DNA of 64,000 bases from Opitutia bacterium (lineage in GTDB: Bacteria > Verrucomicrobiota > Verrucomicrobiia > Opitutales > Seribacteraceae): NCBI GenBank assembly GCA_002721705.1, contig PBLJ01000043.1, positions 1 to 64,000 of the forward strand. The letters run 5' to 3'. Position 1 is the first letter of the stretch, and the number at the start of each line of letters is the position of its first letter. The translations under genes and the position numbers were made by a program. Below the pieces are notes generated by a model. The model ran no database searches. It saw only the letters and a program-made list of their open reading frames with translations, and was not told where the DNA came from. Positions 22,014 to 26,122 of this stretch are shown here, in pieces.

Positions 22014-22634
22014 TTGAAAGTAGTTATCGTGTTGGGCGGCGATCCACCGGCCACCGTTTTGTTGGATTGGCGAATGCGAACCGCCGATTTCTCGATTGCC
22101 GCCGATGCCGGAATGAACGCCTTTGCGGAGGCTGGCCTGGAGCCGGATCTCCTGATTGGCGACATGGACTCCTTCAATCCCGATGAAGCCGACTTAGTCT
22201 GCGAAATTCAGCGAATCACCGATCAGGGCACTACGGATTTCGAGAAGGCTTTGGGTTGTCCGGAGGCGCGTCAAGCGGATGAAATCGTGGTGCTTGGTGG
22301 AACGGGGGGGCGGAGCGACCACTTTCTCAATAATTTGCTTCTGGCAGCGGGTTTGCCGCAATCCCAAAACGTTCTTTTCGAGGGGGAATGCGAGATTCTT
22401 TATCGGGTAACCACTGAACGACCCCTCGCCTTGGAAGGTTTGGCGGGACAGAGCATCAGTTTCACGCCGGTCGTAGTGTGTGAGGGCGTGACGGTCACGG
22501 GCGTGCGGTGGCCGCTCACTGAAGCCTCCATGGGGCCAGGTCGACAATTGAGCCAAAGCAACGTGGTGGAAGCTGAAGACCTTCGGGTCAGCCTGGCAAC
22601 CGGGATCCTTTACGCAGTTGTCCAAAAACGCTGA
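22014..22634 (+). CDS. thiN: Thiamine pyrophosphokinase
   Basis: The 206-residue protein matches the bacterial/eukaryotic TPK fold: IAADAGMNAF, LIGDMDSF (metal/ATP), DQGTTDFEKAL and GGTGGRSDHFLNNLLLA. It transfers pyrophosphate from ATP to thiamine to give ThDP. Use of TPK implies salvage of free thiamine. Translation starts at a TTG with a strong Shine-Dalgarno. It follows UDG by 18 bases in the ribE operon and is convergent with the methyltransferase gene. Confidence 0.92.
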   Translation: MKVVIVLGGDPPATVLLDWRMRTADFSIAADAGMNAFAEAGLEPDLLIGDMDSFNPDEADLVCEIQRITDQGTTDFEKALGCPEARQADEIVVLGGTGGRSDHFLNNLLLAAGLPQSQNVLFEGECEILYRVTTERPLALEGLAGQSISFTPVVVCEGVTVTGVRWPLTEASMGPGRQLSQSNVVEAEDLRVSLATGILYAVVQKR

Positions 22635-22635
22635 A

Positions 22636-23199
22636 TCAACTTTTTTTCCGTACTAGGAAAGCGAGAGGCGAACTCATGTCTCCTCCGGTGGTTTCCGTGG
22701 AGATTGCGTATTTTTCCGAGGATAGGTTGCTGCAGTGATCCTCGACCGCGCGAGCCTCTTCGCTGCCGCCTGGATGACCGCGATAGGTGGTGACGGCCAA
22801 CAAACCGTTCGGGGCTAACCATTCCGTCGACGCTTCCAGTCCCGCGATCGTGGTGGAAGGGCGCGTAACGACGGATTTGTCGCTGCCGGGTAAAAAACCC
22901 AAGTTGAAGGTGATGGCTTGGGTTCGTCGACGAATTTCCTGAGGCAGGACGTCGCTCATGCCCTCATGTCCTTCATGGTAAAGGAGACAACGGTCGAGCA
23001 CGCCGGCTTCCTGCAGCCTTCTCCTGCTGGAGGTCAAGGCCTCTTCCTGCAGGTCGAAACCATGCACCTTGCCTGTTGTCCCGACCAGACGGCAGAGAAA
23101 CAAGAGGTCGTGACCGTTGCCGACGGTGGCGTCCACCGCGACGTCTCCGGTTCTCAACGTTTCGGCCAAGGCGAGGTGGACTTTTTCCACCAATCTCAT
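22636..23199 (-). CDS. mnmM: MnmM/YtqB-type tRNA wobble-uridine methyltransferase
   Basis: The 187-residue Rossmann methyltransferase belongs to the PF06962 (YtqB) family: DATVGNGHDLLFLCRLVG is the SAM motif, NLGFLPGSDK the family hallmark, and TYRGHPGG lies near the end. In Bacillus subtilis this family (MnmM) methylates 5-aminomethyl-(2-thio)uridine at tRNA position 34. The gene start overlaps the stop of the MnmC-like oxidoreductase gene by 4 bases (ATGA), so the two are translationally coupled. The preceding step of the same pathway is the natural function of that partner. Earlier annotations as rRNA methylase refer to the same family. Confidence 0.82.
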   Translation of the reverse strand: MRLVEKVHLALAETLRTGDVAVDATVGNGHDLLFLCRLVGTTGKVHGFDLQEEALTSSRRRLQEAGVLDRCLLYHEGHEGMSDVLPQEIRRRTQAITFNLGFLPGSDKSVVTRPSTTIAGLEASTEWLAPNGLLAVTTYRGHPGGSEEARAVEDHCSNLSSEKYAISTETTGGDMSSPLAFLVRKKS

Positions 23200-24305
23200 G
23201 AGTGGTCAAGAGAGTCGAAGCGAAGCAGGTCGATTTCCGGGGCTAAAGGTTTTCCTTGAAGGAGATGATCGGCGAAGTCCTCGGCCAATTTCGGAATCCA
23301 TGAAGCGCCTTTTGAGCCAAAGCCATTAAACAAGGCGAGGGAGGGGTTTGCGGGATGACGACCCAAGATGGGCAGGCGATCGCGGGTGCCGGCTCGCAAG
23401 CCGCAACCTTGGCCAATTACTTGGGGAGGGGAGACGAGAAAGCCGGCCAATCCCTCGAGAATTTTTTCACGACCGTCCCGGGAAGGGCCGCTCGTTAGGT
23501 CGTCGTGGTCGTAAGTGGAGCCTGCTCGCAAGGAATCATCCGCGCTCGACAAGAGCCAAAAGCCGGACTGGAGCATTTCATCTGCAGCCGGGGGCTTCGC
23601 CTTCAGTGTAAGGGTTTCACCACGAGTGGGAGCGAATGGCCATTCGTTGAACCATGGGTTTTCGACCACCTTGGCTCCTTCACAGAACACGACGCACGTG
23701 GCTTCCACGTTTTCCCAGCTTCCTCCTTTTTCGAGAACCTGCAAATCTCGGTGATCAAAGAGGCTTTCCTTCCATGCCCCTTGTTCCCGAAGTTCCCGGC
23801 GCATGGTGTCGGCGACCTTTTCGACGTCGACCCATGCCACCTCTCTTATCTCATAGCTTCCCAAAGGATCTCGCCATCCTTTGCTTTCCCAATGCCCCGG
23901 GGGGAATTCTTCCCCGAGATAGGGGGCGAAGGAAGCATTCAGCCTTCTTTTGCGGAAGCGAACGCGTTCCTCCTCGTTCTTGATGAAGCGAAGAATATGG
24001 CCTTCCCTGAGCAAGGGAACCTTCCAGCGGTTGGAGAGTTCACGATAAAATTGCCTTGCATGGGGCAGGAAATGCTCTGCCAGCCATGATTTCGCCAGCC
24101 TCTTGCCTGTTACGGGATTCATGATCCCCGCGGCCACGGGGGTGGCCGCCAAAGGAAGTGTTTTTCCTGACATCAGGCAATTCGCTCCCCGCTTCATCAA
24201 GGATCGGGTCAGCAGGCAACCGGCCAAGCCTTGGCCGACGATCAAGAAATCATACCTCGTTTTCAAAGTTGTTTGTGACGATAGCTTCGGAGGAGAGAGT
24301 CGCAA
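23196..24305 (-). CDS. DAO-family FAD oxidoreductase resembling the MnmC oxidase domain
   Basis: The 369-residue protein begins with an FAD motif, FLIVGQGLAGCLLTRSL. It shares several stretches with the C-terminal (FAD) half of E. coli MnmC as I recall it: AAGIMNPVTGKRL, RQFYREL, CGLRAGTRDRLPILG and GFGSKGASWIP. That domain oxidises carboxymethylaminomethyl-uridine-34 to aminomethyl-uridine, the substrate of MnmM. Overlap with mnmM strengthens the call. It could instead be a generic D-amino-acid or glycine oxidase. The start is uncertain: 24305 is TTG and a second in-frame TTG lies at 24266, neither with a good Shine-Dalgarno. Confidence 0.7.
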   Translation of the reverse strand: MRLSPPKLSSQTTLKTRYDFLIVGQGLAGCLLTRSLMKRGANCLMSGKTLPLAATPVAAGIMNPVTGKRLAKSWLAEHFLPHARQFYRELSNRWKVPLLREGHILRFIKNEEERVRFRKRRLNASFAPYLGEEFPPGHWESKGWRDPLGSYEIREVAWVDVEKVADTMRRELREQGAWKESLFDHRDLQVLEKGGSWENVEATCVVFCEGAKVVENPWFNEWPFAPTRGETLTLKAKPPAADEMLQSGFWLLSSADDSLRAGSTYDHDDLTSGPSRDGREKILEGLAGFLVSPPQVIGQGCGLRAGTRDRLPILGRHPANPSLALFNGFGSKGASWIPKLAEDFADHLLQGKPLAPEIDLLRFDSLDHS

Positions 24306-24340: not shown

Positions 24341-26122
24341 GTGGACTTGGATGGGTTTTGCGAAGAAGTTGTCCAAGTGAAAGGTCAAAGACCCGAGAGG
24401 CAGGCGCGAAAGCCTTCCGACAAGACGTCGATAGAAGAACCTACAGGTCTTATTCTTCTGTTTGCATCGATCATGATAGCTCTGGTGGCTTCCTTGGTCT
24501 GGATTACCTACAGCGCCCGAACTTCTTCCAGTCCGGACCCTGATCGAGAGGTTGCGAGGGCTGGCAATGAGCCGCGCGAAGCCCGCAATCGCGCAAAGAA
24601 GGAGAAATCCATCTTGAAACGGGACGAGTCCAACGCTTCGCAACATGAGAGTCCTTCGGGTAGGGAACCGCTTCCCCAAGAGTTGCTGGACGCCTTGCTC
24701 GACAATAGTTTTAGGTTCCGCGACATCGTGGTGCGATTTTCCTCGGACGAGTCCTTGAGGGATTTCGCCGCCAAGGCGGGTGAAAGAGGATTGTCTATTG
24801 AGAAGGACTTGGCTCGTCTGGGTTTGTTGCGGGTGCGTTTGGACAGTGGCCGTCAAGCCCGCGAATTATTTGAATTACTCCCCGAAGACAGCGAACCCGA
24901 GCCCAATTTTCCGGTGCTCGTTCCCGAGTTGCCCGAGACGGAAAACGTTCGTGGCATCGCCTCCTTCGGCAGGGGTGCCACGGCGTGGCTGGATGCTCCC
25001 GAGGATCGTTCTTCCTGGGGGGCGGGCGTGGTCGTGGCGGTGCTCGACACGGGAGTCGATTTTTCCCATCCCTCTCTCGCTGGAATACAAGGCACCTCCA
25101 TCGATTTGGTGGAGGGCGAAGCGCCGGATGATTCCTATTTCGGCCACGGCACGGCGGTGGCATCGATCATTGCGGGCGACCCCGATGCCGTGGGAGGGTT
25201 GGCTCCGAAAGCCGAAATTCTCAGTTTCCGAGTTCTCGACGGAGAGGGGGTGGGGAATGCCTACGTCGTGGCAAACGGTATAGTCCAAGCGGTGGACCGG
25301 GGAGCCGACGTCATAAACCTCAGCCTTGGTTCAAGTGGCCACAGCTTCGCCATGGAGAAAGCCATCGGGTATGCCGTCGAAAACAATGTCTTGGTTGTGG
25401 CTTCGGTGGGCAACGATGGTCAAAAGGGAGTTACTTTCCCGGCGCGTTTCGATGGAGTGATCGGCGTGACCGCGGTGGACAAGAAAGGAAGCCAAGCCAT
25501 TTTCGCCAATTACGGCGATGGCGTCGATATCGCGGCTCCGGGGGCTGGCGTGCATGCGGCTTGGGCGGAAGACCAACTTGTGTCCTTCAGCGGCACTTCC
25601 GCTTCCACCCCGTTCGTTACAGGCGCCTTGGCCGGCTTGATTTCCCAGAACCGGGCGATGCCCAAGGCGCAACTGGTCGAGCTGTTGTACCAGCACGCCA
25701 ACGACGATCCCATGCCGGGCGTCGATCCTTACGTCGGGAAGGGCATCCTCGACTTGGGACGCGTCTTGGGACGGGAGGAAAAAGGAATATACGACATGGC
25801 GATCACGGGCTATTACTTTGATCCCAAGTACTTCGATCGTCCGGGATCCACTCCTTTTCTCGTTTCGGTCCAAAACCAGGGTACCGAGTGGGTCGACCGC
25901 GCTACCTTGGAGATCAATTTCGGAGAAGTCAGCAAGACCTTGCATTTCTCGAACTTGGGTGTGGGAGAAGTGAAAAGCATCGAGTTGCAGCTGGAAGAAA
26001 AACATGCCAAGGATCCCGACGGCACCCGCATTCGGTCCAGTCTCGTGATCGACTCTCATCCAGACGGCGACATGAATAACAACCTGCGAATCACTCGCAT
26101 CACCTTGCCGGTGGATGATTGA
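24341..26122 (+). CDS. Membrane-anchored subtilisin-like serine protease (S8)
   Basis: The 593-residue product starts at GTG and has a signal-anchor at about 36-57 (GLILLFASIMIALVASLVWI). A propeptide-like region (115-190) follows, then the S8 domain with Asp236 (AVLDTGVDFSHPS), His269 (GHGTAVASI) and Ser420 (SGTSASTPF), all intact, plus the oxyanion Asn in SVGNDG. The C-terminal 120 residues (FLVSVQNQGTEWVDRATLEI) look like a CARDB-type beta-sandwich. It is probably tethered to the inner membrane with the protease in the periplasm. It is divergent from the MnmC-like gene with only 35 bases between. Confidence 0.9.
   Translation: MDLDGFCEEVVQVKGQRPERQARKPSDKTSIEEPTGLILLFASIMIALVASLVWITYSARTSSSPDPDREVARAGNEPREARNRAKKEKSILKRDESNASQHESPSGREPLPQELLDALLDNSFRFRDIVVRFSSDESLRDFAAKAGERGLSIEKDLARLGLLRVRLDSGRQARELFELLPEDSEPEPNFPVLVPELPETENVRGIASFGRGATAWLDAPEDRSSWGAGVVVAVLDTGVDFSHPSLAGIQGTSIDLVEGEAPDDSYFGHGTAVASIIAGDPDAVGGLAPKAEILSFRVLDGEGVGNAYVVANGIVQAVDRGADVINLSLGSSGHSFAMEKAIGYAVENNVLVVASVGNDGQKGVTFPARFDGVIGVTAVDKKGSQAIFANYGDGVDIAAPGAGVHAAWAEDQLVSFSGTSASTPFVTGALAGLISQNRAMPKAQLVELLYQHANDDPMPGVDPYVGKGILDLGRVLGREEKGIYDMAITGYYFDPKYFDRPGSTPFLVSVQNQGTEWVDRATLEINFGEVSKTLHFSNLGVGEVKSIELQLEEKHAKDPDGTRIRSSLVIDSHPDGDMNNNLRITRITLPVDD

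Follow-up and report, generated by a model that had tools for sequence, protein, structure and literature searches.

A flavin-dependent oxidase family paired with the methyltransferase MnmM, a predicted functional counterpart of the fused tRNA enzyme MnmC

Introduction

Do two overlapping bacterial genes, one for an FAD-dependent oxidase and one for the tRNA methyltransferase MnmM, together perform the two steps that E. coli entrusts to the fused enzyme MnmC (MnmC(m)-MnmC(o)), and do they derive from it? The question arises from a window of 64,000 nucleotides, the whole stretch of Opitutia bacterium DNA analysed here. A sequence-only reading had called this pair a split MnmC, and had proposed that the oxidase supplies the step preceding MnmM as an independent solution.

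According to the 2023 paper in which MnmM was identified, no MnmC(o)-like enzyme was then known from organisms with MnmM, and one should likewise be encoded wherever MnmC(m) is an orphan, Bacteroides being one of the examples given (PMC9976899). In the Gram-positive route, MnmL is listed as the radical SAM enzyme (PMC12548931; NCBIfam TIGR01212).

Results

Structure of the locus

The oxidase and the methyltransferase are indeed encoded by separate genes, which overlap on the minus strand (Table 1). Translational coupling of oxidase and MnmM through the shared ATGA is likely, judging from the arrangement of the codons. The oxidase frame (24305 to 23196) comprises 369 codons when counted from the most upstream TTG. 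Its start is uncertain, lying at TTG 24305 or TTG 24266, and relatives fit TTG 24266 better. The methyltransferase frame (23199 to 22636) encodes 187 amino acids.

Table 1. Features of the oxidase-MnmM locus and its flanks, in window coordinates.
Feature	Position	Strand	Remarks
FAD-dependent oxidase, DAO fold; proposed MnmC(o)-like tRNA cmnm5(s2)U34 oxidase	23196..24305	-	Upstream partner
MnmM (YtqB) tRNA nm5(s2)U34 methyltransferase	22636..23199	-	NF053511, nearest structures, catalytic residues
ATGA overlap of 4 bases (oxidase stop TGA, MnmM start ATG)	23196..23199	-	Read from sequence
Thiamine pyrophosphokinase	22014-22634		Downstream of pair, convergent
Subtilase	24341-26122		Upstream of pair, divergent
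GFGSKG motif of oxidase	23307..23324	-	Matches GSRG in the FAD-binding G619 region of E. coli MnmC (PMC3648344 Table 2)
GLRAGTRDRLPILG motif of oxidase	23361..23402	-	Arg matches E. coli MnmC R567 and the glycine oxidase GLRPGTKD Arg
AAGIMNPVTGKRL of oxidase	24096..24134	-	Marks the new oxidase family; not common to MnmC

The methyltransferase is MnmM

Assignment of the downstream gene to YtqB/MnmM was borne out. The protein scores 182.3 bits with the NCBIfam equivalog NF053511, above the cut-off of 135, and the solved structures closest to it are those of YtqB/MnmM. B. subtilis MnmM needs D34, N101, Y141, H144, K110, Y104 and K11 (PMC9976899); the window protein keeps D34, N101, K110, Y141 and H144. 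K11 is histidine, as it is in 56 of 68 related sequences. The U34-stacking Y104 is phenylalanine (22894-22896, minus strand), a position held by tyrosine in 67 of the 68 MnmM sequences compared; in B. subtilis MnmM, Y104F leaves about a third of the activity (PMC9976899).

Profiles, fold and motifs of the oxidase

The oxidase belongs to the DAO proteins (Pfam PF01266, 86.7 bits). TIGR03197 (MnmC1) is the best NCBIfam model, but its 66.8 bits are far under the cut-off of 174.2. This score alone decides nothing about identity, since an unrelated paralogue of generic DAO type, also encoded in this genome, reaches 60 bits with the same model. The ThiO model TIGR02352 ranks second. Its profile matches all 24 family members, weakly, and a thiamine pyrophosphokinase gene adjoins the pair, as would suit a glycine oxidase ThiO serving thiamine synthesis whose adjacency to MnmM is incidental. 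The window oxidase, however, reaches no more than 52 bits with the ThiO model, whose cut-off is 250.8, and the kinase gene is convergent to the pair.

Fold search does not discriminate between MnmC and glycine oxidase. The AlphaFold model (pLDDT 93.9) matches the MnmC1 fold, but in Foldseek it lies about equally close to glycine oxidase, which provides the best matches, and to iminodiacetate oxidase. All three enzymes oxidise an N-CH2-COO- group, the group that cmnm5U presents. Close structural matches to the iminodiacetate oxidase IdaA and to sarcosine oxidases also accord with an enzyme whose substrate is a small molecule, either an N-carboxymethyl or a secondary amine, and whose link to MnmM has some other cause, such as shared regulation. 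That explanation is hard to square with the genomic linkage, fusions and partner exchange described below, and we consider it highly improbable.

Three motifs had been put forward as common to the oxidase and MnmC, and they fared differently. GFGSKGASWIP stands: it resembles ALGSRGLCSAP of E. coli MnmC and is specific against ThiO. GLRAGTRDRLPILG does match (GVRCATRDHLPMVG), but it matches GLRPGTKDGKPYIG of ThiO as well. AAGIMNPVTGKRL is not an MnmC sequence, E. coli carrying QGALYPLLSK there, and marks the new oxidase family instead. The flavin-site sequence is GSKG in the family, GSRG in MnmC(o) and HYRNG in ThiO; GS[K/R]G is thus common to the family and MnmC(o), whereas ThiO and DadA are without it. 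Together with GS[K/R]G, equivalents of the MnmC flavin-site residues G518, R567, G578 and G619 were found in the window oxidase and its family, the arginine being invariant in 24 members. In loci L087-L166 the presence of GSKG carries no independent weight, as the GTDB scan that yielded them was seeded with this pattern; it was not used as a seed for the phylum loci or for the comparisons with MnmC and ThiO.

The oxidase family forms its own clade

Phylogenetic trees were built from 68 sequences and, more carefully, from 39. The oxidase and its relatives form their own clade (99/99) and MnmC(o) a separate one (96/98), with ThiO and DadA apart. Descent by splitting of MnmC is rejected, since the oxidase branches outside MnmC(o); to the extent that the trees can tell, neither the oxidase nor MnmM descends from MnmC. 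Joining the family with MnmC(o) is not rejected (AU p = 0.30), whereas grouping it with ThiO is (AU p = 0.011). The oxidase therefore does not fall within the glycine/sarcosine oxidase clade: a branch of 100/97 support divides ThiO and DadA from the oxidase family, MnmC(o) and PDB 22zt.

PDB 22zt chain A, solved as a 'Predicted D-Amino Acid Dehydrogenase', has GLGSKG and groups weakly (89/83) with the oxidase family, on a very long branch; it may be another tRNA oxidase. Genus g26 of the same class (L043-L048; genomes of about 3 Mb) has a highly divergent oxidase, with 28-31% identity, and carries MnmM at a distant locus.

The oxidase and MnmM occur together

Among 195 genomes of the phylum, 40 have the oxidase, 28 have MnmM and 27 have both, a profile in keeping with the proposed pairing. 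The oxidase is present in 27 of 28 MnmM genomes and in 13 of the 167 others (genome-level p = 3e-22). Related genomes are not independent, and the genus-level figure is the fairer one: the oxidase is present in 14 of the 15 genera with MnmM and in 7 of the 93 remaining genera (Fisher p = 1e-11). No partner methyltransferase was detected in five of the 40 genomes with the oxidase, and in one of these five the oxidase is seen only at a contig end. A stand-alone TIGR01212 protein, a possible MnmL, occurs in addition in three genomes with MnmM and the oxidase.

A scan of GTDB genomes returned 377 relatives of the oxidase, and we examined the best 80 of them. Their hosts are Verrucomicrobiota, Bacteroidota, KSB1, Schlesneria (Planctomycetota) and a few gammaproteobacterial MAGs. 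In 29 of these best 80 the gene immediately after the oxidase, on the same strand, is MnmM, and the phylum set adds five adjacent pairs, including the window's own, giving about 34 distinct loci. No oxidase relative was found in the plasmid collection searched. A Piscirickettsia salmonis plasmid carries a stand-alone MnmC oxidase half (L207:1690-3095), just upstream of which lies a 43-codon remnant annotated as an MnmC-family methyltransferase.

Among the gene clusters that recur beside the oxidase, MnmM is the most widespread and no thi genes were recognised. Taken with the low profile score, the rejected grouping, GSKG in place of HYRNG and the existence of oxidase-MnmM fusions, this makes a ThiO function very unlikely.

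Fusions and exchange of partners

In five loci of the best 80 (L092, L119, L134, L135 and L146) the oxidase and MnmM form a single open reading frame, and Pfam and NCBIfam confirmed both domains in one frame for the fusions tested. The hosts are four Schlesneria planctomycete MAGs and one gammaproteobacterial MAG. Two fusion events are suggested by the placement of the fused oxidases, which occupy two distinct regions of the oxidase tree, with the MAG assignment of the gammaproteobacterial fusion being uncertain.

MnmM is not the only partner. In most Bacteroidota genomes examined, and likewise in six genomes of the verrucomicrobial family f21, the oxidase is accompanied by a stand-alone MnmC2 (DUF752; 218-326 aa) and MnmM is missing. 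Five of the f21 genomes carry a stand-alone TIGR01212 protein in addition, so that the first step there could in principle be performed by either enzyme. Since its partner may be MnmM or MnmC2, the oxidase tracks the pathway rather than one neighbour. The oxidase (p = 3e-5) and MnmM are both absent from all 40 of the 195 phylum genomes that have an MnmL-MnmC2 fusion, which a small-molecule substrate would also leave hard to account for.

The MnmL-MnmC2 fusions (L078-L086, e.g. L079:1315-3069, minus strand) are mostly 565-660 aa long; in them MnmC2 (DUF752) comes after a radical SAM domain of the MnmL/YtqA type that passes the TIGR01212 cut-off. They are possibly another one-protein replacement of MnmC.

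Proteins some 700 aa long that match PF05430, present in order-mates (G045, G075, G088, G140, G161 and others), were first read as fused MnmC. The four proteins scanned are fusions of the tRNA-guanine transglycosylase Tgt with a C-terminal MnmC2-like domain (PF05430, 51-55 bits): L191:1964-4027, L192:1916-4030 and L194:1967-4042, all on the minus strand, and L199:1-1944 on the plus strand. Such fusions, found in order-mates and others, place two enzymes of wobble position 34 within one protein.

Pathway genes in the genome of origin

The assembly to which the window belongs measures 3.54 Mb in 95 contigs and is 89% complete; gene absences in it are provisional. It has MnmG and one MnmM. Within this assembly we found no fused MnmC, no MnmC-type PF05430 methyltransferase and no MnmL (TIGR01212) over the cut-off of 180, the best match reaching 24 bits. 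The oxidase-MnmM pair is therefore the only visible route to mnm5(s2)U, and the only recognised candidate in the assembly for the last two steps, cmnm5(s2)U to mnm5(s2)U.

MnmEG can make nm5U directly from ammonium, so that a methyltransferase can work without an oxidase (PMC9976899). With nm5 arising in this way, the oxidase might act at another point of the same pathway, on a different U34 side chain or in repair or proofreading. The known pairing of domains in MnmC, and the arginine and GS[K/R]G held in common with MnmC(o), favour the same chemistry instead, and we regard action at another point as very unlikely.

Discussion

We predict that the oxidase and MnmM are a two-protein functional replacement of MnmC, with a probability of about 0.8. 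The operon structure, the phylogenetic profile, the five fusions and the lack of recognised alternatives in the assembly give good support to the view that the oxidase provides the step before MnmM, as an independent solution. We infer the substrate, the order of steps and the direction of the chemistry as follows. MnmE-MnmG would add the carboxymethylaminomethyl group (cmnm5) to U34 of certain tRNAs. The FAD oxidase would then act on the N-carboxymethyl group, which is an N-substituted glycine, and oxidise its C-N bond to an imine, whose hydrolysis would yield glyoxylate and aminomethyl-uridine (nm5). Finally, MnmM would move a methyl group from SAM onto nm5, giving mnm5(s2)U. The two genes would form one unit of transcription and translation.

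The pair and E. coli MnmC are alike in their two-step logic and in the oxidase fold, and the two oxidases have GS[K/R]G and the conserved flavin-site glycines and arginine in common. They differ in that MnmC is one fused protein with a DUF752 methyltransferase, whereas the pair consists of separate overlapping genes with MnmM and an oxidase of a separate clade. Moreover, the oxidase half is C-terminal in MnmC but N-terminal in the oxidase-MnmM fusions. 'Split MnmC' is thus wrong as a statement of descent but probably right as one of function: the pair is probably a parallel assembly of the two-step pathway of MnmC.

MnmM performs the last step in the MnmL-MnmM route of Gram-positive bacteria (YtqA/YtqB) as well, but the first step there is assigned to the radical SAM enzyme MnmL, in whose place the pair has an FAD oxidase. 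ThiO and IdaA resemble the oxidase in fold and, as predicted for the oxidase, in the type of N-CH2-COO- chemistry. ThiO is nevertheless separate phylogenetically and at the flavin site, and it is with tRNA methyltransferases, not thi genes, that the oxidase is linked.

In the non-subscription literature searched we found no description of the oxidase family or of an oxidase-MnmM fusion; there may be an earlier report. A 2024 J. Bacteriol. paper reportedly deals with Gram-positive routes to mnm5s2U.

On a broader scale we think it reasonably probable that an unnamed family of tRNA oxidases converts cmnm5 to nm5 in Verrucomicrobiota, Bacteroidota, KSB1 and some Planctomycetota, that its partner can be MnmM or the unrelated methyltransferase MnmC2, that it was fused with MnmM independently of MnmC, and that bifunctional enzymes for wobble uridine have more than one origin. 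Beside MnmL in Gram-positive bacteria, the family offers a specific candidate, open to experimental test, for much of the remaining MnmC(o)-like step, in Verrucomicrobiota and Bacteroidota. The natural oxidase-MnmM fusion would be a second, convergent MnmC. Together, these arrangements suggest that different enzymes for both steps have been combined freely across bacteria.
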